From: Deltaproteobacteria bacterium
Lineage (GTDB): Bacteria > Desulfobacterota > Desulfobacteria > Desulfobacterales > JAFDCJ01
NCBI GenBank assembly: GCA_019312835.1
Contig: JAFDCJ010000227.1
Location: 1 to 43,688, forward strand
DNA length: 43,688 bases
Direction of reading: 5' to 3'
Shown: piece by piece, positions 1-40,384 of the stretch
How positions within the stretch are numbered: position 1 is the first letter of the stretch
How the letters are laid out: each line of letters opens with the position of its first letter
Notes under the pieces: model-generated
Told to the model about the DNA's origin: nothing
The model's database searches: none
Seen by the model: the letters and a program-made list of their open reading frames with translations, nothing else
Translations under genes and position numbers: made by a program

Positions 1-503
1 GAATTTTGAAGCGCATATTTATACAGGTTGGGATACTTTTCGCGGGACGGTTCCTGATCACGAAAAATAAATGCACCGATCATGTCATTGGCGTAACTGG
101 TCATTAGATCAAAATACCGCTGGATGGCATCTTGTTCTTCGGGAAAGGCTTCTTTCAACACGGCAATGGTTTGATCACGATCCGTCCTGAGGGTAATGTT
201 GAACCCGTCCGGTGCGGCCACGTGGTAAAGATCGGAGATTTCCACGAACTCGAGATCATCCAGCACCCCGAGCTTATCCAGATCCAGGCGCAACAGGCCG
301 GGCTTTTCCGGTGTGCCCAGCCCGCTGAGCTGATGCAGCGCCACCTCGAACTCGAAACGGCCCCGGCAGAAACTCGTGGCGGCACCCCCGGGAATATTGT
401 GCCGCTCGAGCAGCATCACATTCAGACCCTTGCGCGCCAGGGTCGCCGCGGCCGTGAGCCCGCCATTGCCGGCCCCAATCACGACGGCATCGTATTTTTC
501 CAT
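1..503 (-). CDS. CrtI-like FAD-dependent oxidoreductase, N-terminal part (runs off window)
   Basis: The protein starts MEKYDAVVIGAGNGGLTAAA, a Rossmann dinucleotide-binding motif (GAGNGG at about residues 11-16), followed by an LLERHNIPGGAAT stretch typical of the phytoene-desaturase/retinol-saturase-like NAD(P)/FAD oxidoreductase family. About 167 residues are visible; the family usually has about 500, so the C-terminal two thirds lie beyond position 1. The ATG at 501-503 has a clear GGAGG five bases upstream, which fixes the start. It is the last visible gene of the minus-strand acyl-CoA cluster, downstream of the acyl-CoA dehydrogenase. Its substrate cannot be read from the fragment. Desaturation or saturation of a polyprenyl or other lipid-like substrate is the family role, and a link to the acyl-CoA genes is inferred from position only. 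Confidence 0.8.
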   Translation of the reverse strand, partial: MEKYDAVVIGAGNGGLTAAATLARKGLNVMLLERHNIPGGAATSFCRGRFEFEVALHQLSGLGTPEKPGLLRLDLDKLGVLDDLEFVEISDLYHVAAPDGFNITLRTDRDQTIAVLKEAFPEEQDAIQRYFDLMTSYANDMIGAFIFRDQEPSREKYPNLYKYALQN

Positions 504-550
504 AAAACCTCCGATGGAATCAGAAAAATAGTTAAATAGCAATTTATATT

Positions 551-640
551 GATAGCTCATAGCCTAGAGCTCATAGCTCAAAGTAAAATGGATTTTAATC
601 CTTTAGACTACCAGCTATCAGCTATGAGCTATGAGCTTCT
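551..640. repeat. Intergenic word palindrome, AGCTCAT/ATGAGCT type
   Basis: The gap between the acyl-CoA dehydrogenase and the CrtI-like gene is an imperfect palindrome. The left arm (about 551-595) repeats the word AGCTCATAG and the right arm (about 596-640) repeats its complement CTATGAGCT. An RNA copy could fold as a long stem with several registers. It may end or stabilise the upstream transcript; that is inference. Confidence 0.75.
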
Positions 641-1782
641 TATAGGCCCATGAACTTGGCCGCTATATTCTTCATCACCTCGTTCGTGCCCGCAAAAATC
701 GTCATGATCTTGGCATCGCGCCAGGCCCTGACGATCTTGCACTTCTCAAGGGTGCCGAAATTCCCGCATAGATCCAGGCAGCGGTTGGCCACGCGGTTCA
801 ACATCTCGGTGGTCCAGTATTTGGCCATGGATGTTTCAATGATGATATCTTTTTTTTCAACGTGATCCGCCACCAGTTTTTCGACAAAGGTTCGGCCCAG
901 CTTGACGTCGGTCGACAACTCCACCAGGGCAAACTGCACCGCCTGTGATTTTGAAAGGGGTTTTCCGGAAACAGTGGTCTGTTTGCAGTAATCGACGGTC
1001 CACTCCAGGATGCGCTCCGCGCCGGTAACCGCCATAATCGCGCATACCAGCCTTTCCTGCTGGAGCTTATCCATCAGCATCAAAAAACCCATGCCCTTTT
1101 CGCCCAGGCGGTTTTTCCGGGGGATACGGCATTTTGAAAAAAACAGCTCCGCAGTATCCTGGCTCCACATGCCCATCTTTTCCAGGTGGCGCCCGGTTGA
1201 AAATCCGGGGGTCTGGGTCTCAACCACGAAAAGCGAAAGGGCTTCATAGGGATTTTCGACGGCCGGGTCCTTGGCGGCCACCACAACCAGATCGGCATTC
1301 AAGCCGTTGGAAATAAAGGTCTTGGAGCCATCGATGACGACCTCTTCACCTTCCTCCACCGCCGTGGTGGCAATGCTCGCCAGGTCGCTGCCGGCACCCG
1401 GTTCGGTCATCGCCACCGCCGTCACAATATCACCCGATACGCAGCCGGGAAGATATTTTTTCTTGATTTCTTCTGAACCGAAGGAGGTGATATAAGGAAC
1501 CACGATGTCACTGTGCAGGGGGGTCGCCAGCCCGGTAATCCAGGTCTGGGTCATCTCTTCGGCTGCGATGAAAGCGTACAGAAAATCGCCCCCCATGCCG
1601 CCGTATTCGGCGGGGACATCCATGCACAAAAAGCCACCCTGCCCCATTTTCTGCCAGGCACTTTTGGGTACAATCCCGTCTTTTTCCCATTGATCACCGA
1701 AGGGTGTTATCTCCTTTTCCAGGAAGGCCCTCAACCGTTCTCGAAATTCGTTGTGATCCTTAGAATAATTTAAAATTTCCAT
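640..1782 (-). CDS. Acyl-CoA dehydrogenase (FAD-dependent, LCAD/IVD-type active site)
   Basis: 380 residues, the normal family size. It oxidises an acyl-CoA to the trans-2-enoyl-CoA and passes electrons to electron-transfer flavoprotein. Visible marks are the signature AMTEPGAGSD (residues 124-133), KTFISNG (164-170) and a C-terminal FAGTNEVMK. MCAD-type enzymes keep the catalytic Glu in a YEGT motif near the C-terminus, but here that motif reads FAGT. Instead a Glu sits in QQERLV (E243), where long-chain and isovaleryl-CoA dehydrogenases have theirs. This argues for a long-chain or branched substrate. An upstream in-frame ATG at 1881 would add 33 residues encoded by an intergenic repeat, so the start MEILNYSKDH at 1782 is preferred. 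The gene lies downstream of the thiolase and probably belongs to the same operon. Confidence 0.92.
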   Translation of the reverse strand: MEILNYSKDHNEFRERLRAFLEKEITPFGDQWEKDGIVPKSAWQKMGQGGFLCMDVPAEYGGMGGDFLYAFIAAEEMTQTWITGLATPLHSDIVVPYITSFGSEEIKKKYLPGCVSGDIVTAVAMTEPGAGSDLASIATTAVEEGEEVVIDGSKTFISNGLNADLVVVAAKDPAVENPYEALSLFVVETQTPGFSTGRHLEKMGMWSQDTAELFFSKCRIPRKNRLGEKGMGFLMLMDKLQQERLVCAIMAVTGAERILEWTVDYCKQTTVSGKPLSKSQAVQFALVELSTDVKLGRTFVEKLVADHVEKKDIIIETSMAKYWTTEMLNRVANRCLDLCGNFGTLEKCKIVRAWRDAKIMTIFAGTNEVMKNIAAKFMGL

Positions 1783-1824
1783 GTCTGGTAATCTCTTCGT
1801 TCGTGCGTTAGGATCGCTGCGCTT

Positions 1825-1915
1825 AAGGTTGGAGGTTGGAGGCAAAAAAGGATTGGATCTTTTTATATTCTGACACCTCATCCTCCAACCTCTAACCTCA
1901 AACCGCCAACCGCCG
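1825..1915. repeat. Intergenic word palindrome, GGTTGGA/TCCAACC type
   Basis: Between the thiolase and the acyl-CoA dehydrogenase, the left arm (1825-1842) is a tandem GGTTGGAGGTTGGAGG. The right arm (about 1880-1911) is the complementary series TCCAACC, CTAACC, AAACCG, CCAACC. The spacer is about 37 bases. The architecture matches that of the other gaps in this cluster, but the word is different. Confidence 0.7.
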
Positions 1916-1935
1916 AAGGCGTTGCCCTCAACCTA

Positions 1936-3147
1936 TTATCCCTCGTACCTCCCTACTATGGCAATACTGCAAACGTTCATAGCGGGAAAGCCGCCCAGGT
2001 TATGGGTCAGACCGAATTTAGGATCTTCCAGCTGCCGCTCGCCGGCACGTCCATGAAACTGAAGATACATCTCGTAGAGCATTCTGAGACCCGAGGCGCC
2101 GATGGGGTGCCCGAAACATTTCAAGCCGCCGTCCACCTGGCAGGGAATTTTGCCGTCACGGTCGAAGACCCCATCCATCACGTCGCGCCAGGCTTCACCC
2201 CGCTCGGATAAATGCAAATCTTCCATCGTCACCAGTTCCGTAATGGAAAAGCAATCGTGCACTTCCATCATACTGATCTCCTCTTTGGGATCTTGGATGC
2301 CCGCCTCCTCGTAGGCTCTGGTGCTGCATTTGCTGGTGGTGACAAAATGATCGCCGTCCCAGTCGTTGTATCCCAATTCCTCGCCGCTGCTGAGCGCCAG
2401 CTGCAAGGCCTTGACGGTGATAAAATCCTTTTTACCCAGCTGTTTGGCCATCTCGGGTGTGGTGACAATGGCGCAGGCCGCGCCGTCGCTTACCCCGCAG
2501 CAGTCGAAAAGCCCCAGCGGATGGGCAATGATCGGGGCCGCCATAATCTGGTCCTCGCTGACGGCTTTGCGCAGATGGGCTTTGGGATTCAAGGCGCCAT
2601 TGGCATGGCTTTTGGCCGAGACATGGGCAATCGCCCGTTTGATGTCCTGATCGGTAATGTTGTATTTGGCGGTATATGCACTGGCAAGCTGGGCAAAAGC
2701 ACCGGGAGCCGTCATGTTGGGAAACCACTGCCACATCAGGCTGCCGGAATCCGATCCCGTAAAACTGGGCAGGCCGCCGTATCCGGTATCTTTGAGCTTT
2801 TCCACGCCCAGGGCCAGCGCAATATCATAGGCCCCGGAAGCCACCGCATAACAGGCACCGCGAAAGGCCTCGGTACCGGTGGCGCAAAAATTTTCAACCC
2901 GGGTAACCGGTATGTTGGGCAACCGCAGGGTAATTGAAAGCGGCAGGGCACTGCGACCCACATTGATGCTGTCAAAACAGGTTCCCAGCCAGGCCGCACC
3001 GATCTCTTTTTTTTCGATACCCGCATCCTCCAGGCACTCTTTAAAGGCCTCGACCATTAACTCTTCTGCCCCCATGTCCCAGCGCTCCCCGAATCGGGTG
3101 CAGCCCATACCGATGATTGCAACTTTATCTTTTATTCCTGTAGCCAT
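1936..3147 (-). CDS. SCP2-type thiolase / acetyl-CoA acetyltransferase-like protein
   Basis: 403 residues with the thiolase fold. It is expected to cleave a 3-oxoacyl-CoA with CoA or catalyse the reverse condensation. The likely nucleophile is Cys88 in VENFCATGTEAF. HDCF (297-300) and GHPIGASG (346-353) supply the active-site histidines, and Cys344 precedes the latter motif. These features place it with SCP-x and archaeal acetoacetyl-CoA thiolases rather than FadA-type enzymes. Members of this branch often need a DUF35 partner; here such a domain lies inside the gene just upstream (3306-6035). A GGAGG about eight bases before the ATG supports the start. The chain-length specificity is not visible. 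Confidence 0.9.
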   Translation of the reverse strand: MATGIKDKVAIIGMGCTRFGERWDMGAEELMVEAFKECLEDAGIEKKEIGAAWLGTCFDSINVGRSALPLSITLRLPNIPVTRVENFCATGTEAFRGACYAVASGAYDIALALGVEKLKDTGYGGLPSFTGSDSGSLMWQWFPNMTAPGAFAQLASAYTAKYNITDQDIKRAIAHVSAKSHANGALNPKAHLRKAVSEDQIMAAPIIAHPLGLFDCCGVSDGAACAIVTTPEMAKQLGKKDFITVKALQLALSSGEELGYNDWDGDHFVTTSKCSTRAYEEAGIQDPKEEISMMEVHDCFSITELVTMEDLHLSERGEAWRDVMDGVFDRDGKIPCQVDGGLKCFGHPIGASGLRMLYEMYLQFHGRAGERQLEDPKFGLTHNLGGFPAMNVCSIAIVGRYEG

Positions 3148-3164
3148 AATTTTTCCTCCGGAAA

Positions 3165-3300
3165 AATTGGTTGATTGGTTGATTCGTTAATTAGCTGATG
3201 GGTTTGAAGTTACTGACCCTGCTGATCACACCATCTGACCATTCGACTATTTTCTATTTAACTGATTCTCTATTCGACTCTTTTTCTATTTGACTATTCT
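3165..3300. repeat. Intergenic word-repeat array, GGTTGATT and CTATTYGACT words
   Basis: The gap between the fusion gene and the thiolase contains GGTTGATT repeats at about 3169-3190. A longer series based on CTATTYGACTATTT follows at about 3240-3298. The two parts are only loosely complementary, so this is the least palindromic member of the series, but the tandem-word composition is clear. Confidence 0.55.
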
Positions 3301-3305
3301 GCTGC

Positions 3306-6035
3306 CTACCCTATTACGAAAAGTTTTTCCAGCAGCTGCGATTTCATCACATCGCCTCCGATCTGCAGCTTGCCGGAAGTGAAGGCCTGCATGGCCGGCA
3401 GCTTGCCGCCCATCATGGCCAGAAAGTCTGCTGCCGCCATTTTGATGGTGCAGGCGGGTTTTGCGTGGGTTCCCTTCGCAACCGTGCAGGCCGCATCTTT
3501 GATGATGCAATACCACTCGCCGCCGCCTTGGCCGGATATACTAAACTGGAAGACGACATCGACACCGGCAGCCGCCTCCGCTTTGAAGCTGCCCATCATT
3601 TTATCGAAAATCGCCTGCACGTCACTGCCTTGCTGGGAGGCAGTTTCCTCTGATTCTGCCGCTTCGGAGGGCGGCGCGATCAGGGCGAAAATGGCCGCGT
3701 TGGCGTCCTCCATTACCCTGGCACCGTCCATTGAATTGATTTTGTCCCAGTTTTCGTGGATCTGCTCCGGGGTGGGCGGATTGTCCGGATCCCCAAGCTG
3801 AACGGTGGGACCCGTATGGATGACGGCCCGGTTAAAATATCCCATGCCGCTGTTGAATATGGCCCCGGATTCGGCACAGTTCTCACCGCAAAGATACATC
3901 ACCATGGGAACGACAAACTCAGGTTTCGATTTTTCAAACAGATCCGGCGGCATGACATCTTCGGTCAGCCGTGATGCGGCGATGGGGGCAATCGTATTGA
4001 CTTTAATGTTGTATTTCTGGCCTTCCAGCTTGAGGGTATTCATCAAACCTACCAGCGCCATTTTGGCGGCTGAATAATTGCTCTGGCCGAAATTGCCGTA
4101 CAATCCGGCTGCCGATGTGGTCATGACGATCCGGCCGTAGCCGTTTTCTTTCATCGCGGCCATGGCCGGGCGGGTCACATGGTAGGCACCATTGAGATGC
4201 ACATCCATCACCGCCTTCCAGTTCTCCGGCTCCATCTTAATAAAGCTCTTGTCCCGTAGAATCCCGGCGTTGTTGATGACGATGTCGAGCCGACCGAAGG
4301 CGTCCAGGGCCGTCTTGACGATATTCTCACCGCCTTCGGGGGTGGCGACGTTGTCGTAATTGGCCACGGCTTCACCGCCCAGGGCCTTGATTTCATCTAC
4401 GACAGTGTCGGCCGGCGACGCCGATCCTTTGCCGGAGCCGTCTCGGGCACCGCCCAGATCGTTGACCACGACCTTGGCGCCCCGCCTGGCCAGTTCCAGG
4501 GCATAGGCCTTTCCAAGACCGGCACCGGCACCGGTGACTACCGCCACGCGGTCATCAAAGCGGATCATATCCTTTTCCGCTGCTGCTCCGGGTATTGGCA
4601 CGGCTTTCCAGAAATAGTTTACAAATCCGCGCTCCCTGTCAACCCCTTTGCGCTTGAAGCCCATTTTGACGGGCAGACCGACCCTGACGTCATCGAGTTC
4701 ACAATCGGTAAAATCCAGCACCGCCCGGCCGCCGCCTTCAAACTGTACCATGCCGTAGATGGCCGGCGGATCGACCGATACCGAAAGCAGGTCGCCGGTA
4801 AAGGTTTTGACCCGGGCGGGAACATCGGCAAATTCGTAATCCTCCTGGCTGTGAAACGCACCGCATTCCGGATTGACACAGATATCGGCTTTGGGAAACT
4901 GGGGGGTGCCGCATTCGGTGCATTTACCCCCAACCAGTCCCAAAATCATTTTATTCTTGCGCCATAAAACCGAGGTGGCGGTCTGGGTCGGGGCCTCGGC
5001 CCGGATCCCCATTTCGGTTTTGATCAGATCCCTGAATTTGAGCCATTTGAAATAATTGTCCGTTGTCTTTTTATTGGCCAGTGATCCGGCAACCCCGTTT
5101 CTGGCGGCCAGTTTGGTGATATTGTCCGTGACCTCGAAATACAGTGCATTGGCGCCCTGACCGAAACCGCACATCAGAATTCGATCCCCGGGCTGAGCCT
5201 CTTCCAGGGCGCTGATAAACATCATAAATGAATGAGCCGCACCGGTCTCGCCGCAGACCTCATGCATGTTGTCCACCAGCTTTTCCGAGGTCGCTCCCAG
5301 CCCGGCGGCGATATTGCGGTGGTCGCGTTTAAAAAAGCAGGGGTAAACCAGCCGATCGACATCATCCATGCCGATTCCCAACTTGTTAAACAGGCCGTTG
5401 ACGACCCGGGGAATAATCTCGGCATATCCGGCATCTCTGGTCCAGCGCTCTTCCCAGACATAGTCGTATTTTTTATCGGCGCCGCGGTAGTGATCGACAA
5501 AATCCATGGATAACGAATAGGAGCCTTTGTATTCGGCGATCACATCGTCATCGCCCACGGTTAAGGCGGCTGCCCCGTCACCGAACCACATTTCATAGAA
5601 ATAGGCCGTTTTGGTTTCCCGGCTGTCGCTGGCCGTCACCATAATATTGTGCCGCTGTCCGCTCTGGATCGACTCGAGCGCCGTTATGAGCGCAGTGGTG
5701 GCCGCCTTCTGGGAAGCGGTGTGGTCGGCGGTGATCATCTCATCTCTGAGGTTGAGGGCGGCCGACACGATTCCGGCGTTCTGGCGATCTGCAAACGGCA
5801 GGGTCGTCGAAGCCAGGTACAGGGCGTCCAGCTGGCTTTTATCCCGGCCGCGCAGACAGTCACGCGAAGCCTCCACCGCCATGGTGATCGCGTCTTCATC
5901 CCAGTTGCACATGGATCGCTCGCCCTGCGCCACCATCATAATGGCAGGCGCAAACCAGCCCATCCCTTGAAAGATGGCCATACGGTCCAGTCTCAACCGC
6001 GGAATATAAGCACCGTAGGAAGTAATTCCGATCAT
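3306..6035 (-). CDS. Four-domain fusion: HMG-CoA-synthase-like + DUF35 Zn/OB + SDR + SCP2
   Basis: 909 residues from MIGITSYGAY. AAGGAG lies eight bases before this ATG and too close to the ATG two codons upstream. Residues 1-340 are a thiolase-fold domain of the HMG-CoA synthase/KAS III type. Residues 365-480 are a DUF35 domain with zinc-ribbon cysteines C372, C375, C386 and C391 and an OB fold. Residues 488-790 are an MFE-2-type short-chain dehydrogenase with TGAGAGLG (501-508), NNAG (588-591), N615, S641, Y654 and K658. Residues 805-905 are an SCP2 sterol-carrier domain. The likely job of the SDR is (3R)-3-hydroxyacyl-CoA oxidation, with SCP2 carrying the acyl chain. In the first domain the position of the catalytic Cys appears to be Gln109 (codon 5709-5711), so condensing activity is doubtful. 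The SDR-SCP2 half is a close paralogue of that in the next gene upstream. I know of no standard protein with this order. Confidence 0.85.
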   Translation of the reverse strand: MIGITSYGAYIPRLRLDRMAIFQGMGWFAPAIMMVAQGERSMCNWDEDAITMAVEASRDCLRGRDKSQLDALYLASTTLPFADRQNAGIVSAALNLRDEMITADHTASQKAATTALITALESIQSGQRHNIMVTASDSRETKTAYFYEMWFGDGAAALTVGDDDVIAEYKGSYSLSMDFVDHYRGADKKYDYVWEERWTRDAGYAEIIPRVVNGLFNKLGIGMDDVDRLVYPCFFKRDHRNIAAGLGATSEKLVDNMHEVCGETGAAHSFMMFISALEEAQPGDRILMCGFGQGANALYFEVTDNITKLAARNGVAGSLANKKTTDNYFKWLKFRDLIKTEMGIRAEAPTQTATSVLWRKNKMILGLVGGKCTECGTPQFPKADICVNPECGAFHSQEDYEFADVPARVKTFTGDLLSVSVDPPAIYGMVQFEGGGRAVLDFTDCELDDVRVGLPVKMGFKRKGVDRERGFVNYFWKAVPIPGAAAEKDMIRFDDRVAVVTGAGAGLGKAYALELARRGAKVVVNDLGGARDGSGKGSASPADTVVDEIKALGGEAVANYDNVATPEGGENIVKTALDAFGRLDIVINNAGILRDKSFIKMEPENWKAVMDVHLNGAYHVTRPAMAAMKENGYGRIVMTTSAAGLYGNFGQSNYSAAKMALVGLMNTLKLEGQKYNIKVNTIAPIAASRLTEDVMPPDLFEKSKPEFVVPMVMYLCGENCAESGAIFNSGMGYFNRAVIHTGPTVQLGDPDNPPTPEQIHENWDKINSMDGARVMEDANAAIFALIAPPSEAAESEETASQQGSDVQAIFDKMMGSFKAEAAAGVDVVFQFSISGQGGGEWYCIIKDAACTVAKGTHAKPACTIKMAAADFLAMMGGKLPAMQAFTSGKLQIGGDVMKSQLLEKLFVIG

Positions 6036-32327: not shown

Positions 32328-33194
32328 TCAGGCGGGCTTTTTGAATTTGCCGTTGTTTTCGGCAAAATGCTTGATCATTAAATCACCCAGCTCTTTGGAG
32401 CGGTTGGTGGCCGCCTCGACCGCATTGATCAAGGTTGTGCGCAATCCGCCGCTTTCAAGGGTTGCCAAACCGGCAATGGCCGTGCCCCCGGGTGAGGTGA
32501 CGCGATCTTTCAGCTGTCCCGGATGCTCCTGGGTTTCGATTAACAGCTTGGCTGCGCCCAATACGGTTTGAGCCGCCAAAAAGAGCGCGTCCTGCCGGGC
32601 GAGGCCCATTTTGACACCGGCATCCGCCAGGGCATCTACGATCAGGAATATGTAGGCCGGCCCGCTGCCGCTCAATCCCGTAATGGCATCCATCAAATAG
32701 TTTTCTTTGAGAAAAATGGTTTGGCCGATGGAATTGAAAATTTCCAGAGCCAGGCGCACGTCATCTTTGGTGGCATGTCCGCCCGCGGCTATGGCCGTGG
32801 CAGATTCCTTGACGGCGGCAGCAATGTTGGGCATCACCCGTATCAATCGCAGGTCCTTGCTGATACAGGCTTCCATGGCCGCCAGAGGCACGCCGGCGGC
32901 AATCGAGATGACAAGCTTGGACATATCGAGCTTGGATGCCGTTTCGGTCAGGGTCGTCGCCATGATCTGGGGTTTGACGGCATAGATAACTATGTCCGCT
33001 TCGTCCACCGCCCTGAGATTGCTGGTGGTGGTGCGGACTTTGTAATTGGCTTTGATTGATCTTAACGTATCCGGTCTGATATCGGTGCAGATAATATTTT
33101 GGGGCCGGGATGATTTGGAGCCGATCAATCCACTCACCAGCGCCTCCCCCATGTTACCCGTCCCGATAATGGCAATTATTTTATCTTTTAACAT
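32328..33194 (-). CDS. proC: Pyrroline-5-carboxylate reductase
   Basis: 288 residues from MLKDKIIAIIGTGNMGEALV; an upstream in-frame ATG at 33299 would add 35 residues that look non-coding. It reduces 1-pyrroline-5-carboxylate to proline with NAD(P)H. The GTGNMG motif binds the nucleotide, and the ProC signature is visible in AITGLSGSGPAYIFL and LKDRVTSPGGTAIAGL. AGGGG precedes the ATG. In many Desulfobacterota proC sits directly before yggT and divIVA; here it is about 8 kb away on the other strand. A lone 230-base gap follows, with nothing supported in it. Confidence 0.94.
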   Translation of the reverse strand: MLKDKIIAIIGTGNMGEALVSGLIGSKSSRPQNIICTDIRPDTLRSIKANYKVRTTTSNLRAVDEADIVIYAVKPQIMATTLTETASKLDMSKLVISIAAGVPLAAMEACISKDLRLIRVMPNIAAAVKESATAIAAGGHATKDDVRLALEIFNSIGQTIFLKENYLMDAITGLSGSGPAYIFLIVDALADAGVKMGLARQDALFLAAQTVLGAAKLLIETQEHPGQLKDRVTSPGGTAIAGLATLESGGLRTTLINAVEAATNRSKELGDLMIKHFAENNGKFKKPA

Positions 33195-33380
33195 GACCGC
33201 TCTGCCCCTTTTGAATTCTGTTTTTTTTAAAGTTGCACACCTAAAAACACGCTGCAAACAAGGTCGCAAAGTCTGACTCTTTAAATATTTCAGACGCATT
33301 AGTCAAGTAAATTATGACCAGCGCATAATTTGGCCGGGATACCTGGCACGTAAATCTTGACAATCGATGGGCTCAAATAT

Positions 33381-33401
33381 TATAATGGTTTAACCATTAT
33401 A
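33381..33401. promoter_or_regulatory. Perfect 21-bp operator of the FCD regulator
   Basis: TATAATGGTT is mirrored exactly by AACCATTATA around a central T, containing TGGT-N3-ACCA. This is the consensus class bound by FadR/PdhR/LldR-like FCD regulators. It lies 55 bases before the regulator gene, so autoregulation is likely. The promoter of the downstream oxidation genes may carry weaker copies that I did not see. Confidence 0.7.
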
Positions 33402-33456: not shown

Positions 33457-34176
33457 ATGTTCCAGGCGGCCAAGCAAACCAAAGTTTTCCAGGATGTAGT
33501 AGAACAGATCCAGGAGGCAATCCTGGATGGACGGTTGACAGCCGGTCAGACGTTGCCCGCGGAAAGAGAATTAAAAGAGATGTTTAGCATCAGCCGCGGC
33601 ACCCTGCGCGAGGCCCTGCGGGTTCTGGAACAAAAAGGTCTGATTGAAATAAGGCTGGGCGTGGGCGGCGGCTCGGTGGTTAAAGCCGTCGATACGGATC
33701 AAATCAGCGAAAGCCTTGGCCTGTTGATTCGTTCGCAGCAGGTATCTTTGAACCATCTGGCTCAATTCCGTGAAGATGTGGAAGGAATCGTCGCGGGCCA
33801 TGCCGCTGAAAACCATACCGCCGAAGACATCCACCAACTGAAAGAACTGCTGCAAAACGCTTCCAGGTGCTTAAAAAAGGGGCCTTCCCAGAGAAATGCC
33901 TTCATTGATATCGACAAACGGATCCACCTGACCATGGCCCGGATTACCGGCAATCCGGTATATATATCCGTCCTGCATTCCATTCACGATAACATCCACC
34001 GCTACTACGATCGGTTTCTATCCATGGACATACCCGAATTGGAGGAAAATTATAACGACCTGTGCGAATTGGTAAAGGCCATCGAAAATGGCGAGGCGGA
34101 GCGGGCTCGCCATCTGGCCAAACAGCATGTTCAACGTTTCAATCAATATATGAAGATGAGGGAAAAGAGCAGCTAA
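33457..34176 (+). CDS. GntR-family regulator, FadR/PdhR (FCD) type
   Basis: 239 residues. The winged helix-turn-helix is at about 10-75 (LTAGQTLPAERELKEMFSIS, RGTLREALRVLEQKGLIEIR). The FCD domain follows, with metal-ligand-like residues in FIDIDKRIHLTMA (Asp and His), HSIHDNIHRYY and AKQHVQRFNQY. Such proteins sense carboxylic acids such as pyruvate, lactate or amino-acid products. It leads the plus-strand oxidation island and has a perfect TGGT-N3-ACCA palindrome in its promoter. Confidence 0.92.
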   Translation: MFQAAKQTKVFQDVVEQIQEAILDGRLTAGQTLPAERELKEMFSISRGTLREALRVLEQKGLIEIRLGVGGGSVVKAVDTDQISESLGLLIRSQQVSLNHLAQFREDVEGIVAGHAAENHTAEDIHQLKELLQNASRCLKKGPSQRNAFIDIDKRIHLTMARITGNPVYISVLHSIHDNIHRYYDRFLSMDIPELEENYNDLCELVKAIENGEAERARHLAKQHVQRFNQYMKMREKSS

Positions 34177-34333
34177 CCTCATATTAAAAAAGGAAACAAA
34201 GTTTTTGGGAAATATATAAATTTTGGCTCATCCAATAAATAAACTTGAATTTCGAATTGCGTGCTTCGGATTTAAATAAAATTTGATGAGAAGCTTAAGC
34301 ACGACCATTTCTAATGAATCCAAGCAATGAATC

Positions 34334-36403
34334 ATGTCTAAATACAGAATTCAAAAACACCCCATCCTTGAGATACCGGATAGAACAGCAGTTTCCTTTA
34401 CCTGGAACGGCAAGAAGCTGATCGGCTTCGACGGAGAAATGATTGCGTCGGCCTTGTTCGCCAATGGCATCCATATTTTCGGACATCACCACAAAGACAA
34501 CAGCCCCCAGGGAATTTTCTGCGCCAACGGCCAATGCTCCCAGTGCATGGTCATGGCCGACGGCCTGCCGGTTAAATCGTGCATGACCCCGTTACGGGAT
34601 AAAATGGTGGTACAAAGTGTTGAAGGTCTTCCGACAATCCCGGATGAAAACCGCATCCCGCAAACCGGTGAAATACCCGTCAAAGAGGTGGATGTGTTAA
34701 TCATCGGTGGCGGTCCGGCCGGGTTGTCGGCGGCCATCGAACTGGGCAAACGGGGCATCGAGACGCTGATCGTGGATGACAAGGACCGCCTGGGAGGCAA
34801 ACTGGTGCTTCAAACCCATAAATTTTTCGGCTCGGTAAAAGATTCCCATGCCGGCACCCGCGGCTTTGAAATCGGCAAGATCCTGCAGGATGAACTCCTG
34901 ACCCTCGGCTCGGCCGAGGTCTGGTTAAACACCACTGCGCTGGCCGTCTTTTCGGATCAGGTTGTGGGGCTGATCAAGGACAATCAGTACAAAAAAATAA
35001 GGCCCAAAAAGCTTTTGGTGGCCACGGGGGCCAGAGAGAAAATGCTGTCTTTCCCGGGCAATACCCTGCCGGGCGTCTACGGTGCCGGGGCGTTTCAAAC
35101 CCTGGTAAACCGCGATCTGGTAAAATCTGCAGAGAAAGTGCTCATTGTGGGCGGCGGCAACGTGGGACTCATTGCCGGCTATCATGCCATTCAGGCCGAC
35201 ATAGCAGTAGTGGCCCTGATTGAAGCCCTGCCGCAGGTTGGCGGCTACAAAGTGCACGCCGATAAACTCAAACGCCTGGGGGTACCCATTTATACCAGCC
35301 ACACGGTGGTAAGCGCCAACGGAGCGGAACGGGTTGAATCTGTCACCATCGCCCAGCTGGATGAAAACTGGCATGTGATGCCCGACACGCATAAGACTTT
35401 TGAAGTCGATACGGTGTTGATTGCCGTCGGGCTGGCCGAAGTCAACGAATTTTATCTCAAAGCCCGGCAGTTCGGAATGGATGCATTTTGCGCCGGCGAT
35501 GCCCAGGAAATTGCCGAAGCATCGGCCGCCATGTTCACCGGCAGGATAGAGGGGCATAAAATCGCCCAATCGCTGAACATCGACATCGAACCAACGCCCG
35601 ATGAATGGGATGCCAAGGCCACCATTTTAAAGTCAAAACCGGGACGACCGACCCGCCGCCCACCGCCGTCAAAAGAAGACGGGGTTTTTCCTATTTTTCA
35701 TTGCTACCAGGAAGTCCCCTGTAATCCCTGCACCTCGGTTTGTCCGGTGGGGGCCGTCCGTACCCAGGATGATAAAATCACCGGCCTGCCCTATATGGAC
35801 GACCTGGATGCCTGCACCGGCTGTGCAAGCTGCGTGGCGGTTTGCCCGGGGCTTTCGGTGACGATGGTGGACTTCCGGGAAGATCCCTCCCATCCGCTGG
35901 TAACCCTGCCCTATGAGGTCTGGCGAGAAAAAGTAAAAGTGGGCCAGCAGGTTCCGCTCACCGATATCGACGGTGCCGTTTTGGGATTTTTCCCGGTGGA
36001 AAAAGTCCGTTCACGGAAAAAATATCCCGGCACCCTTCTGGTACAGCTGAAAGTTCCCAAAGCGGTTGCCAAATCGGCAGCGGGAATCTGGGTTCAGGAA
36101 AAACAGATTGAGCCGTCAACCATTTACGAAAAAGAACCCCCGCCCGATGAAGCCATTGTGTGCCGCTGCGAGCGGGTGTCGGCCGGCGAGATTCGTGCGA
36201 TCATCCGCAACGGCATCCGCGACTTAAATCAAATCAAGGCCTTGACCCGTGCCGGCATGGGGGCCTGCGGCTCCAAGACCTGCCGCCCCATGATCTGGCG
36301 GATTTTTCAGGAAGAGGGCATCGCGTTGAAAGATGTCACCGATCGGGTCGATCGGCCCCTGTTTATAGAGGTGCCCATCGGGGTTTTTGCGGGAAGTAAG
36401 TGA
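34334..36403 (+). CDS. Multi-cluster flavoprotein (HcnA/B or SoxA-like 2Fe-2S + FAD/NAD + 2x4Fe-4S + BFD-like)
   Basis: 689 residues with four modules. The N-terminal 2Fe-2S domain has C63, C68, C71 and C83. A pyridine-nucleotide disulfide-oxidoreductase core follows, with FAD motif GGGPAG (125-130) and second nucleotide motif GGGNVG (273-278). A ferredoxin insert has C457, C463, C466, C470 and C494, C497, C500, C504, giving two 4Fe-4S clusters. The C-terminal BFD-like 2Fe-2S site has C610, C612, C645 and C650. Parts of this resemble HcnA/HcnB, octopine-dehydrogenase and sarcosine-oxidase-alpha proteins, which pair with a DAO-type flavoprotein; exactly such a gene follows. It likely passes electrons from substrate oxidation to ferredoxin or NAD. 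The substrate is unknown. Confidence 0.88.
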   Translation: MSKYRIQKHPILEIPDRTAVSFTWNGKKLIGFDGEMIASALFANGIHIFGHHHKDNSPQGIFCANGQCSQCMVMADGLPVKSCMTPLRDKMVVQSVEGLPTIPDENRIPQTGEIPVKEVDVLIIGGGPAGLSAAIELGKRGIETLIVDDKDRLGGKLVLQTHKFFGSVKDSHAGTRGFEIGKILQDELLTLGSAEVWLNTTALAVFSDQVVGLIKDNQYKKIRPKKLLVATGAREKMLSFPGNTLPGVYGAGAFQTLVNRDLVKSAEKVLIVGGGNVGLIAGYHAIQADIAVVALIEALPQVGGYKVHADKLKRLGVPIYTSHTVVSANGAERVESVTIAQLDENWHVMPDTHKTFEVDTVLIAVGLAEVNEFYLKARQFGMDAFCAGDAQEIAEASAAMFTGRIEGHKIAQSLNIDIEPTPDEWDAKATILKSKPGRPTRRPPPSKEDGVFPIFHCYQEVPCNPCTSVCPVGAVRTQDDKITGLPYMDDLDACTGCASCVAVCPGLSVTMVDFREDPSHPLVTLPYEVWREKVKVGQQVPLTDIDGAVLGFFPVEKVRSRKKYPGTLLVQLKVPKAVAKSAAGIWVQEKQIEPSTIYEKEPPPDEAIVCRCERVSAGEIRAIIRNGIRDLNQIKALTRAGMGACGSKTCRPMIWRIFQEEGIALKDVTDRVDRPLFIEVPIGVFAGSK

Positions 36404-36429
36404 ATGACGAATGGAGAAACTTAAAAAAG

Positions 36430-36620
36430 AATATTGAATGTCGAATATCGAATACCGAATGTCGAAGGAAGATAAAAAAAGAATGTCGAATATCGAATTA
36501 CGAATACCGAATGTCGAAGGAAGGTATTCTATCGATTTTATAAATAAAGACTGAGCGAAGCGATTCAATCCTTCGAAATTCGTTATTCGAGATTCTGCGG
36601 TTCTACGGTTCGCTTTTTCT
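36430..36620. repeat. Word palindrome, GAATGTCGAATATCG direct repeats with complementary arm
   Basis: A block of about 35 bases beginning GAATGTCGAATATCGAAT and ending in GTCGAAGGAAG occurs twice, at about 36437-36471 and 36481-36520. The right arm (about 36568-36600) carries TCCTTCGAAATTCG and TTATTCGAGATTC. It separates the two flavoprotein genes of the oxidation island. Confidence 0.75.
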
Positions 36621-36649
36621 GGTTCCATGTTCATTAAGGAGCAGTTATT

Positions 36650-37798
36650 TTGAACTTTGACGTCATCATCGCCGGCGCTGGATCAGTCGGTGTGCCGACG
36701 GCCATGTCTCTGGCGGAGCTTGGCATCAAGCCCCTGGTCATCGATATGCACCCTTCACCGGGTCAGGGGGAGAACAAGCACGCCATCGGCGGCATCAGGG
36801 CCACCCACTCCACCCCGGGCAAGATCCGCATCTGCCGCCGCTCGATTGAAATATTTTCCACCTGGGAACAGTTATTCGGCGATAACATCGAATGGCTCCA
36901 GGGCGGATATGTTTATCCGGTATACCGGCCGGAAGATGAAAAACTGTTGAAGGGATTGCTGCCGGCTCAAAAACAACACGGCCTGAATATCAATTGGGTC
37001 GGTCAGAAAAAGATAAAGGCGCTTATCCCTGGAATCAATGCCGAAGGACTGCGCGGGGGCACGGTCTCGCCGGACGACGGCTCCATCTCTCCGCTGCTTT
37101 CGATCAACGCCTTTTACCGCCGGGCGCTGGCGTTAGGTGTACAATTTCGGTTCCAAGAAACCATCACCAGAATTATCTGTGAAAAGGGTAAAATCGTCGG
37201 TGTTGCCACCGACAAACAGAACTATGGCACGCAGGTGGTGATTGATGCGGCCGGTCCGTTCTCACCCGAGCTATGCCGGACGGCCGGGGTTGACCTGCCC
37301 ATCGCGCCCGATTCCCATGAGGGTGCCATCACCGAACCCGTGCAGCCGTTTTTTCATTGTATGGTGGTAGATATCCGACCGGCACCCGGTTCCAAAAGCT
37401 ATTATTTTTACCAAAACAAACAGGGGCAGGTTATTTTCTGCATCACCCCCGATCCGCCGATCATCGGCAAAGACAAACGCGAAACCTCGGTGTTTTTACC
37501 CCAGGTATGCTCCCGCATGGTGCGACTGCTGCCGCGGTTGAAGAACCTGCGGGTGCGCCGGACCTGGCGGGGACTTTATCCGATGACCCCGGACGGCGCC
37601 CCCCTGGTAGGCTGGAATCGAAACGCAGGGGGACTGCTGCATGCCACCGGCATGTGCGGCCAGGGTTTGATGCTGGCACCCGGGGTCGCCGAACTCGCCG
37701 CCCGCATGGTGGTCGGACAGACAACGACAGAAGACGAGATGGTCATGGCGGAATTCTCACCGTATCGGAAGTTTGAGGCGGATGAGGCGTTGAAATAG
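36650..37798 (+). CDS. DAO-family FAD oxidoreductase (HcnC / sarcosine oxidase beta-like)
   Basis: 382 residues. NFDVIIAGAGSVGVPTAM is the FAD-binding Rossmann motif, and the C-terminal TGMCGQGLMLAPGVAELAA completes the flavin site. RTWRGLYPMTPDGAPLVG (about 303-320) is the DAO-family substrate region. The family oxidises the C-N bond of secondary or D-amino acids such as glycine, sarcosine or D-proline-like compounds. The start is TTG at 36650-36652 with AAGGAG eight bases before it. With the preceding multi-cluster protein it should form an amine or imino-acid dehydrogenase. The exact substrate is not visible. Confidence 0.9.
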   Translation: MNFDVIIAGAGSVGVPTAMSLAELGIKPLVIDMHPSPGQGENKHAIGGIRATHSTPGKIRICRRSIEIFSTWEQLFGDNIEWLQGGYVYPVYRPEDEKLLKGLLPAQKQHGLNINWVGQKKIKALIPGINAEGLRGGTVSPDDGSISPLLSINAFYRRALALGVQFRFQETITRIICEKGKIVGVATDKQNYGTQVVIDAAGPFSPELCRTAGVDLPIAPDSHEGAITEPVQPFFHCMVVDIRPAPGSKSYYFYQNKQGQVIFCITPDPPIIGKDKRETSVFLPQVCSRMVRLLPRLKNLRVRRTWRGLYPMTPDGAPLVGWNRNAGGLLHATGMCGQGLMLAPGVAELAARMVVGQTTTEDEMVMAEFSPYRKFEADEALK

Positions 37799-37861
37799 CA
37801 TTGGCCTCAAAGCTCGAAGCTGAAGGCTCAAAGTTAAATGACATTGGTTGCAGTTAAAAAA

Positions 37862-37972
37862 ATGGTAGAAGGTTGAAAGCAGAGGGTGTAAGGTAGAGGA
37901 ATGCTGTCTTTTTTATTTTAACCTTTTCCGAATCTTCAACCTTATACCTTACACCTTCTACCCTATACCGGT
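37862..37972. repeat. Word palindrome, GGTAGAAGGT/ACCTTCTACC type
   Basis: The left arm (37862-37900) carries GGTAGAAGGTTGAAAG, GGTGTAAGGTAGAGG and related words. The right arm (37920-37970) answers with AACCTT, TCAACCTTATACC and TTACACCTTCTACC. It lies between the DAO-type gene and the aldehyde oxidoreductase gene, which has its own ribosome site further down. Confidence 0.75.
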
Positions 37973-38048
37973 AACCAATAGAGCCTTGATTACAATAATG
38001 AGGGATTATATATAAAGCTTATACTAACTGAAATGAGGAGAGAAAAAT

Positions 38049-40190
38049 ATGCCAGACTTTAAATTGGAAGTGACCAAAACGCTTGATTATAAGCGGCCTG
38101 AATTAGCGAAGGGCTACAACGATCAGACGCTGTTCGTGAATATCTCTAATGCCGATATGGCCGTTAAACCGGTGGATCAAAAAACCAAGGAAACATTCGT
38201 CGGCGGCAAAGGCTATGACCTCTGGCTGCTGTGGGATGCCGTTCAGGGAGACACCCGCTGGGATGACCCTCAAAACGCTATCTGCATCGCCTGCGGTCCA
38301 TTGGGGGGCACGCCGATCTATCCGGGTTCCGGAAAAAGTATTGTCACCACCGTTTCTCCTCTGACGGCCGCGCCCATAGACTCCAATGTCGGCGGCTACT
38401 TTGGCCCCTACCTGAAATTTTCCGGTTTTGACGCCCTGCGGATTCAGGGCAAGGCCAGCGGAGACACGGTAATTTTCATCGACGGTATCAACCAGCAGGT
38501 TCAGATCCTGGATGCTGCCGGTCTGCCGGAAAACGCCTACGAACTGTCGGCATTGCTGACCGATCATTTTGCCGATGGCAAGCCCCGCAGTATATCCGTG
38601 GTTTCGGCCGGCCCGGGAGCCCAAAACACCCTGATCGGATGTCTTAATTTTACCTGGTACGATGCCAAACGCAAGCGCGCACGCTATAAACAGGCCGGCC
38701 GCGGTGGTATCGGCACCGTTTTTACCGACAAGGGCCTCAAGGCGCTGGTGGTCCGCTGGGATACGGTCACGGCCGACACCAACAATCCGGCGGATAAAAC
38801 CCGATTAAAGGAAGTCGCCAAATTGCATTCCCGCGAGATAGTGGCGCTGGACCCCAAACAAAATGAAATGGCACGTATCGGAACCACCCATCTTGTCACC
38901 ATTATGAACGATCACGATTTGCTGCCGACCCATAATTTCCGCTACGGGTCTCATGCGGAGGCGCCGAATCTGGGTCAGGAAGTCTATCGGCGCCTGTTCG
39001 ATCCGGGTTTTGACGGTTGCTGGATGGGATGCACCGTGGCCTGCTCGCATGGCGTCAAAGACTTTGTCCCCCTTACCGGACCGTATCGGGGGAAAAAGGT
39101 GTTCGTGGATGGGCCGGAATACGAGACCGTGGCCGGCTGCGGATCCAACCTGGGCATATTCGATCCCCATACGGTTGTAGAACTTAATTTCTACTGTGAT
39201 GCCTACGGGCTGGACACCATATCGGTGGGAACGGCCGTGGCTTTTGCCATGGAATGCTATGAACTGGGGCTGATCGACCAAACCCATACCGGCGGCATGG
39301 ATTTAAGTTTCGGCAACCGCGCCAGCGCACTGGAACTGGTACATCAAATGGCCAGAGGAGAGGGCTTCGGTCAAGATATCGGGCAGGGTGTTCGCAGAAT
39401 GAAGCAAAAATTTGCCAGTGAATTTGGCGCCGACCCGGCCATCATGGCCGACATCGGCATGGAAGCCAAAGGGCTGGAATTTTCCGAATACATGACGAAA
39501 GAGTCTCTGGCCCAGCAGGGGGGGTATGGGCTGGCGCTTAAAGGGCCCCAGCATGATGAAGCCTGGTTGATTTTTCTGGACATGGTCCATAATTTTATGC
39601 CGACCTTTGAAGACAAGGCCGAGGCGCTGCACTGGTTTCCCATGTTTCGCACCTGGTTTTCGCTCTGCGGTCTGTGCAAACTGCCGTGGAATGATATCGT
39701 TCCCGAAGACAATAAAGATACCGCGGAACCGGCCAAGGTCATCAAGCACCTGCAGTGGTATGCGGATTATTTCAGCTCGGTGACCGGACGCGCCTCCTCC
39801 CCTGATGACCTGGTTGCCATGAGTGAGGTGGTTTACAATTTCCAGCGCATATTCAACCTCAAAATGGGGTTTGGCACAAGAGCGCACGACAAGCTGCCCT
39901 ACCGGGCCGTCGGACCGGTAACCGAGCTGGAATACGAATCCCGGGCCGAGCGCTACGACACCCAGCTGCGGGAAAAATTTAAGGTCGATATTGAAGGCAA
40001 AGACACGGCCGAAAAGATGGCCATCCTGCGTCGCTTGCGCGAAGAGCAGTACGAGAAGCTCCAGGACGCCGTTTACGAGCGCAGGGGGTGGACCCCCGAC
40101 GGTATCCCGACGGTTGCGACGGTCAAAAGATTGGGGATCGATTTTGAAGACGTCCTCGAGATTCTCAGGGAAAACGGGGTAACCGCATGA
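38049..40190 (+). CDS. Aldehyde:ferredoxin oxidoreductase (tungsten AOR family)
   Basis: 713 residues, slightly longer than archaeal AOR (about 605). It oxidises an aldehyde to the acid and reduces ferredoxin, using a bis-pterin tungsten site and one 4Fe-4S cluster. The cluster ligands are visible in CWMGCTVACSHG (CxxCxxxC, about 325-336) and the distal CGLCKLPWND (about 540). The N-terminal pterin-binding region includes GGKGYDLWLLWD and GPLGGTPIYPGSGK. A strong GAGGAGAG precedes the ATG. The ThiS/MoaD-like gene overlapping its stop fits pterin assembly. Within this island it may oxidise the aldehyde left after amine oxidation. BamB-like reductase roles are less likely from context. Confidence 0.92.
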   Translation: MPDFKLEVTKTLDYKRPELAKGYNDQTLFVNISNADMAVKPVDQKTKETFVGGKGYDLWLLWDAVQGDTRWDDPQNAICIACGPLGGTPIYPGSGKSIVTTVSPLTAAPIDSNVGGYFGPYLKFSGFDALRIQGKASGDTVIFIDGINQQVQILDAAGLPENAYELSALLTDHFADGKPRSISVVSAGPGAQNTLIGCLNFTWYDAKRKRARYKQAGRGGIGTVFTDKGLKALVVRWDTVTADTNNPADKTRLKEVAKLHSREIVALDPKQNEMARIGTTHLVTIMNDHDLLPTHNFRYGSHAEAPNLGQEVYRRLFDPGFDGCWMGCTVACSHGVKDFVPLTGPYRGKKVFVDGPEYETVAGCGSNLGIFDPHTVVELNFYCDAYGLDTISVGTAVAFAMECYELGLIDQTHTGGMDLSFGNRASALELVHQMARGEGFGQDIGQGVRRMKQKFASEFGADPAIMADIGMEAKGLEFSEYMTKESLAQQGGYGLALKGPQHDEAWLIFLDMVHNFMPTFEDKAEALHWFPMFRTWFSLCGLCKLPWNDIVPEDNKDTAEPAKVIKHLQWYADYFSSVTGRASSPDDLVAMSEVVYNFQRIFNLKMGFGTRAHDKLPYRAVGPVTELEYESRAERYDTQLREKFKVDIEGKDTAEKMAILRRLREEQYEKLQDAVYERRGWTPDGIPTVATVKRLGIDFEDVLEILRENGVTA

Positions 40191-40384
40191 TCAAGGTCGC
40201 CGACCAAGCCATCGACTGGCATGAGGGCATGACCATAAGCGACCTGTTGGCCGCGATAAACGATCCCCATCCCTATGCCGTCGTTCGCATCAATCAAACC
40301 TATGTGTCGCGGCCGCACTTTGACAAGACGACCATCCCGGATGATGCCGAGGTGTATCTCATACCAATGGTTGCAGGCGGCTGA
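40187..40384 (+). CDS. ThiS/MoaD-like ubiquitin-fold sulfur carrier
   Basis: 65 residues ending in the Gly-Gly tail (LIPMVAGG) that becomes the thiocarboxylate in MoaD and ThiS. The beta-grasp pattern is short but complete: ISDLLAAIN, YAVVRINQTYVSR, IPDDAEVYLIP. Its ATG overlaps the AOR stop (ATGA), so the two are coupled. A dedicated sulfur carrier for the tungstopterin dithiolene of the AOR is the natural reading; such pairs are common next to AOR genes. Confidence 0.9.
   Translation: MIKVADQAIDWHEGMTISDLLAAINDPHPYAVVRINQTYVSRPHFDKTTIPDDAEVYLIPMVAGG

Follow-up and report, generated by a model that had tools for sequence, protein, structure and literature searches.

A stretch of 43,688 nt from a Deltaproteobacteria bacterium of the order Desulfobacterales (JAFDCJ01; contig JAFDCJ010000227.1 of assembly GCA_019312835.1; the whole stretch is hereafter called the window) contains a row of five genes that sets a two-subunit flavoprotein dehydrogenase beside an aldehyde:ferredoxin oxidoreductase (AOR) and that probably serves to convert proline into glutamate. 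All five open reading frames (ORFs) are intact and on the + strand. They encode an FCD/GntR-family regulator of 239 aa (33457–34176; FCD 6.5e-21, GntR 1.8e-18), a 689-aa protein here called alpha (34334–36403), a 382-aa FAD protein of the DAO family here called beta (36650–37798; DAO 3.9e-57), a long-subfamily AOR of 713 aa (38049–40190; AFOR_N 2.9e-46, AFOR_C 3.1e-101) and a 65-aa ThiS/MoaD-like sulfur carrier with the C-terminus VAGG (40187–40384; ThiS 3.1e-10). With these clear Pfam matches, the modules that an initial annotation had placed at 33457–40384 are all present.

Alpha had been described as a protein with four kinds of redox centre, and as a sequence prediction this description holds. 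Its N-terminal [2Fe-2S] domain (34385–34621; Fer2_4 2.3e-24) has the cysteine pattern C63-x4-C68-x2-C71-x11-C83 and is followed by a Pyr_redox_2 FAD/NAD domain (34691–35455) with the NADH-type motif GGGNVG at residues 273–278 and an acidic E297. Next comes a ferredoxin-like segment predicted to hold two [4Fe-4S] clusters (35702–35845; C457, C463, C466, C470 and C494, C497, C500, C504), which the Fer4_7, Fer4_9 and Fer4_10 models match with E-values of about 1e-5, at or slightly below their cut-offs, and then a C-terminal BFD-like [2Fe-2S] domain (36155–36313; Fer2_BFD 3.2e-14; C610, C612, C645, C650). The four N-terminal, eight ferredoxin-type and four BFD cysteines are invariant among 44 alpha sequences. 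In a PDB search with the AlphaFold model (pLDDT 87), the best fold match was 1y56_A, the alpha subunit of Pyrococcus L-proline dehydrogenase (TM 0.80 on target), followed by sarcosine oxidase and then by subunits of the bifurcating NfnABC and StnABC enzymes, a likeness that may merely reflect the common FAD/NAD fold. By sequence profile alone, alpha is slightly nearer to sarcosine oxidase alpha than to PH1363. We describe it as an HcnAB/SoxA/proline-dehydrogenase-alpha-like protein.

The best PDB sequence match of beta was 1y56_B (135 bits, with the runner-up at 65 bits); comparison with plasmid records returned only generic names. A DAO-type FAD beta protein adjoining an alpha protein with an N-terminal [2Fe-2S] and an FAD domain is the architecture of the dye-linked L-proline dehydrogenases of Pyrococcus and Thermococcus (PDH1, PH1363/PH1364, PDB 1y56; PDH2), and PH1363/PH1364 are the best PDB matches of the window pair, for alpha by fold and for beta by sequence. 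The window alpha differs from the 493-aa Pyrococcus subunit in its length, its two additional [4Fe-4S] clusters and its complete NADH-type motif; in the papers searched, neither PDH1 nor PDH2 was described as having an AOR partner. The same superfamily includes HcnABC, D-hydroxyproline dehydrogenase and opine dehydrogenase (alpha4beta4gamma4), whose Cys-X4-Cys-X2-Cys-X11-Cys motif is that of the alpha N-terminal domain (PMC4575208). HCN synthase, however, makes HCN from glycine with separate HcnA, HcnB and HcnC proteins, whereas alpha fuses the HcnA and HcnB equivalents and adds the ferredoxin-like 4Fe-4S segment, and no hydroxyproline or opine genes were seen among the cluster neighbours, which include proline and ornithine genes. 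Compared with heterotetrameric sarcosine oxidase (SoxABDG), the N-terminal part of the window alpha resembles SoxA and beta resembles SoxB, but the scores are far under the cut-offs of the corresponding models (TIGR01372 for SoxA, 155.8 versus 1164 bits; TIGR01373 for SoxB, 96.9 versus 529.45 bits). Alpha has no aminomethyltransferase domain in a Pfam scan; of the four sarcosine oxidase subunits, the comparison by name covered SoxA and SoxB. Judged by gene neighbours and by sequence and fold similarity, alpha/beta is probably a proline dehydrogenase; for proline as its substrate, the support comes from the neighbours. In three other loci (L044, L045 and L046) the alpha relatives are split into separate [2Fe-2S], FAD, ferredoxin-like and BFD proteins, and in L046 these parts are spread across about 10 kb, with beta distant.

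AFOR_N and AFOR_C span the whole length of the AOR, as expected of the tungsten oxidoreductase (WOR) family. Aldehyde-oxidizing members share the residues that in PfAOR are Thr243, Glu313, Tyr427 and His448 (PMC13328260). Aligned with PfAOR, T243, E313, Y427, H448 and C494 correspond to T279, E359, Y481, H502 and C543 of the window protein (the T279 pairing was read off the alignment), so that Thr, Glu, Tyr and His are all kept. The candidate cluster cysteines are C324, C328, C332 and C543, in a CX3CX3C spacing where the family has CX2CX3C plus a distal Cys. Fold matches of the AOR model include the electron-bifurcating 9mqx and 1aor. The AOR shares its domains, catalytic residues and single catalytic subunit with the class I tungsten oxidoreductases (PfAOR, FOR, GAPOR), and the window has none of the recognized types of WOR electron-transfer subunit next to it. 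It differs from class I by being about 100 aa longer, by the CX3CX3C motif and by its place among proline and ornithine genes. The metal would be W or Mo, between which the sequence does not discriminate. An argument about the substrate pocket from clade-specific residues was dropped, as region 472–499 is of low confidence in the cofactor-free model. The 65-aa protein has the beta-grasp domain and terminal Gly-Gly of ThiS/MoaD carriers, although its TIGR01683 score (35.1) is slightly below the cut-off of 37.45. Its probable role is to donate the sulfur of the dithiolene groups in the AOR cofactor. A ThiS-like gene lies 3′ of AOR in 17 named loci.

The AOR and ThiS-like ORFs overlap by 4 bp at the AOR stop, and the remaining gaps are 157 bp (FCD to alpha), 246 bp (alpha to beta) and 250 bp (beta to AOR). 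Median spacings in relatives are about 26 bp for alpha–beta and about 5 bp for AOR–ThiS. The alpha–beta and beta–AOR gaps of the window are longer than in relatives because of repeats, namely GAATATC-type short tandem repeats at 36423–36523 and an imperfect inverted repeat at 37864–37969. A sigma-70-like promoter (TTGACA-18-TATAAT, 33357–33386, + strand) located 70 bp 5′ of the FCD gene agrees with the consensus at 12/12 positions, although promoter-like sites as a whole are not in excess (8 found versus 7.1 expected from shuffles). From this promoter and from gene adjacency, it is plausible that the five genes are under the one FCD regulator, which would sense proline or a product; an FCD gene is close to alpha or AOR in 21/80 alpha loci. 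Divergent from the row lies proC, coding for pyrroline-5-carboxylate reductase (32328–33299, − strand; TIGR00112 284.8 bits versus a cut-off of 196.75).

The linkage of these genes is conserved. In four other genomes of the same genus, alpha, beta and AOR lie side by side at 70–88% identity. Three of the four have the FCD gene (in the remaining one, none lies between alpha and proC), and three have ThiS (the contig of the other ends within AOR). We surveyed 146 genomes of the same order for orthologues of alpha (at least 56% identity) and AOR (at least 69%), which occurred in 26 and 37 genomes, respectively. All 26 genomes with alpha also had AOR (Fisher 2e-20, uncorrected for kinship). The initial annotation had named a lack of AOR–flavoprotein co-occurrence in relatives as the result that would speak against a joint function, and the survey came out in favour. 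Among named genomes, alpha and beta are adjacent in about 70 loci and AOR is present in 33/80 alpha loci. The order FCD–alpha–beta–AOR–ThiS recurs in the genus and in other Desulfobacterota, where the basic arrangement is alpha–beta–AOR–ThiS or a divergent version of it, while 14 Lokiarchaeal loci show the rearranged order AOR–alpha–beta with AOR identities of 55–58%. The AOR sequences of the cluster, those from Lokiarchaea among them, group together in a single clade (support 0.85). A sister clade at 43–45% identity (L205, L220–L237), widespread in the phylum, has the same CX3CX3C motif; its neighbours are varied and different from those of the cluster AOR, and in 18 sister-clade loci scanned no proline/ornithine-type cluster neighbours were found within 1.5 kb. 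Mirror-tree correlations (0.82–0.88 over all loci, only 0.18–0.46 within non-Lokiarchaeal loci) were not used because they mostly reflect the split between Lokiarchaea and bacteria. Co-occurrence far above chance shows that the grouping of the five genes is not accidental, and their products almost certainly work together.

Genes of proline and ornithine metabolism recur around the cluster. In the 14 Lokiarchaeal loci, ornithine carbamoyltransferase (OTC) is found in 12 and ornithine aminotransferase (OAT) in 9, together with carbamate kinase; in one representative locus scanned, all three score above NCBIfam equivalog cut-offs. Four Desulfobacterota loci (L096, L099, L100 and L216) have an ornithine-cyclodeaminase-family gene beside the cluster, two of them (L096 and L099) with a class III aminotransferase as well. 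A proline-racemase-family gene occurs in L104 (Desulfocicer vacuolatum), L118, L152 and L153, and an M24 Xaa-Pro peptidase (prolidase) in L255 and L118. In 11 named loci proC is near the cluster, and Desulfosarcina alkanivorans PL12 (L090) has the complete cluster together with proC. Four genomes without alpha have the co-directional row proC–AOR–thiS with about 30–95 bp from proC to AOR. Genome G205 has AOR–ThiS–ProC, where the proC is a different one and yggT is not nearby. OAT makes glutamate-5-semialdehyde (GSA), ProC uses pyrroline-5-carboxylate (P5C), the cyclic form of GSA, and proline dehydrogenase makes P5C. The reactions of the neighbouring genes therefore converge on P5C and GSA, and this convergence is the core of our argument for the substrate.

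We propose that the FAD of beta oxidizes proline to P5C while alpha takes the electrons away from beta. P5C would open spontaneously to GSA, which the AOR, as a W- or Mo-bispterin enzyme, would oxidize to glutamate, replacing P5C dehydrogenase in role and using its [4Fe-4S] cluster to relay the electrons to ferredoxin. Via ornithine, arginine could enter the same route. What the analysis shows is the gene content, the conserved linkage, the conservation of domains and active-site residues and the recurring proline and ornithine neighbours; the two substrates, the direction, the acceptor, the metal and what ThiS does are inferred from these. That the AOR acts on the GSA/glutamate couple is likely from its genomic context; the catabolic direction written here seems somewhat the better choice and stands, though it is not proved. 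The initial annotation had suggested oxidation of an amine or imino acid to an aldehyde that is passed to the AOR. The gene neighbours retain the imino acid, as proline, while the general amine gives way to P5C/GSA with glutamate as the product. The route would have the same net chemistry as PutA or a P5C dehydrogenase of the aldehyde dehydrogenase (ALDH) type, with which it shares no fold: PutA combines an NAD-dependent ALDH with a quinone-linked proline dehydrogenase, whereas the cluster would use W/Fe-S chemistry and ferredoxin.

The GSA/glutamate potential is low enough for ferredoxin, whereas the proline/P5C couple lies at about −0.12 V and is unable to reduce NAD or ferredoxin unaided; a literature search found neither a redox potential for proline/P5C nor growth data for D. 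vacuolatum. The expectation that both electron pairs would be kept as reduced ferredoxin or NADH therefore fails for the proline step and applies to the GSA step only. It is doubtful for proline unless alpha/beta takes in reduced ferredoxin. Such an enzyme would be a flavin-based electron-confurcating proline dehydrogenase, catalysing proline + reduced ferredoxin + 2 NAD+ → P5C + 2 NADH, and its reduced ferredoxin would come from the GSA:ferredoxin oxidoreductase encoded next to it. Acetobacterium has an electron-confurcating lactate dehydrogenase that operates in a comparable way. If this were true, the two steps would sum to proline + 2 NAD+ → glutamate + 2 NADH without a quinone, and the ferredoxin-like clusters and NADH motif of alpha would be explained alongside a ferredoxin-reducing AOR; we nevertheless consider confurcation unlikely.

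Several observations weigh against oxidation of proline to glutamate by this cluster. The ornithine-cyclodeaminase-family genes score below equivalog cut-offs and could encode pyrroline-2-carboxylate reductase. The proC adjacency in Desulfobacterota is partly an old proC–yggT–divIVA synteny, and we therefore rely on the proC–AOR–thiS rows, G205 and the other neighbours instead. Many alpha/beta pairs (in Chloroflexi, Cloacimonadota and Acidobacteria) lack an AOR gene in the surrounding 10 kb, the AOR has CX3CX3C in place of CX2CX3C as its 4Fe-4S motif, and a formate–tetrahydrofolate (THF) ligase gene near the cluster in several loci would fit a one-carbon substrate. In addition, the window genome has a 1204-aa PutA-type protein with Pro_dh and ALDH domains (L207, 2632–6246 on contig C213), as do several other alpha-containing genomes, so the cluster is not the sole possible proline route. 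In favour of the proposed route, four genomes with alpha and AOR (G011, G022, G025 and G035, of which three have a completeness of 95% or more) show neither Pro_dh (at a limit of 1e-10) nor a P5C dehydrogenase-like ALDH (at 1e-60). The TIGR01237 cut-off was passed in none of the 146 same-order genomes.

The AOR could instead work reductively in vivo, converting glutamate to GSA with reduced ferredoxin and feeding ProC for proline synthesis in place of ProB and ProA. The proC–AOR–thiS rows without alpha/beta and the AOR–ThiS–ProC row of G205 would suit this role. Furthermore, 12 same-order genomes lack both ProA and ProB (ProB having been searched for in genomes lacking ProA or carrying AOR, plus one other), and 9 of them have AOR (9/37 versus 3/109, Fisher p 2.3e-4, a test that counts genomes of one genus several times); none of them has lost ProC. 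However, 7 of these 9 have OAT above its cut-off, which alone could supply GSA, so that we do not regard the loss of ProBA as decisive for a reducing AOR. The window genome retains ProA and ProB, the combination of a dehydrogenase pair with an FCD regulator in one row points to degradation, and the reduction of free glutamate is difficult (about −0.6 V). We therefore hold the reductive role to be improbable. Among 17 Asgard genomes checked, ProA was absent from all and OAT was above its cut-off in 15.

Slightly less probable still is a demethylation route, in which beta would act on an N-methyl amino acid (sarcosine, dimethylglycine or N-methylproline) and the AOR would oxidize formaldehyde to formate for use by formate–THF ligase. 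Beta does belong to the sarcosine/dimethylglycine oxidase family, and the ligase gene is near alpha/beta in L080, L085, L095 and L097 and 3′ of ThiS in L210, L213 and L255, in some of these loci directly 3′ of beta or ThiS. A different AOR and HcnABC-like set in the window genome (L047, positions 405–5479, on contig C90 of G000), in which a C-terminal AOR fragment at the contig edge is followed by HcnA-, HcnB- and HcnC-like genes, adjoins a beta-keto acid cleavage enzyme; this unrelated set might belong to betaine or sarcosine metabolism. The low SoxA and SoxB scores and the lack of an aminomethyltransferase domain in alpha speak against demethylation, and the ligase is linked in a few bacterial loci only, whereas ornithine, proline and P5C genes recur across unrelated lineages.

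We give very little weight to the view that the AOR serves to detoxify aldehydes in general and that its place beside alpha/beta is incidental. The window genome has about 17 other AOR-family matches, and PfAOR, the first characterized class I WOR, accepts a range of aldehydes and has been proposed to act in detoxification (PMC13328260). An incidental place agrees poorly with the 26/26 co-occurrence, with a linkage that is kept although rearranged in Lokiarchaea, with orthologous AOR genes beside proC in loci without alpha/beta, and with the 0/18 result for the sister clade. Least probable of all is a 4-hydroxyproline route with alpha/beta as D-hydroxyproline dehydrogenase, a member of the same enzyme family (PMC4575208), and the AOR oxidizing 2-oxoglutarate semialdehyde: the proline-racemase-family neighbours could be hydroxyproline epimerases, but their highest score is with the model for proline racemase, whose cut-off they do not reach, and OAT and proC do not fit.

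Oxidation of proline by way of P5C and GSA, if true, would mean that anaerobes can do without P5C dehydrogenase and keep the low-potential electrons released from GSA as ferredoxin. Sulfate reducers and Asgard archaea could plausibly gain energy in this way from the proline and arginine of proteins. The proposal would also connect an AOR lineage that occurs in Desulfobacterota and Lokiarchaea with a single named metabolite, making its function directly testable. A physiological role is defined for a member of only 5 of the 92 WOR clades, and the 2026 WOR classification from which these figures come makes no mention of proline, glutamate or ornithine (PMC13328260). The initial annotation knew of no described pathway joining these modules, and in open-licence papers we likewise found none on the pairing, nor any linking an AOR with proline, GSA or ornithine, which given that scope is weak evidence of novelty.

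Three further observations concern individual loci. A 450-aa protein is encoded 5′ of AOR in 11 Lokiarchaeal loci (L111, 6306–7664, and its counterparts) and has no Pfam (1e-6) or NCBIfam (1e-20) match. Two loci binned as Thermoplasmatota (L092 and L121) carry an alpha gene 70–71% identical to the bacterial one, through either transfer or wrong binning. Finally, in two Lokiarchaeal loci a gene lies between AOR and alpha that in L130 (8650–9921) was identified as a ThiC-family radical SAM gene and in L143 (8686–9945) clusters with the L130 gene.

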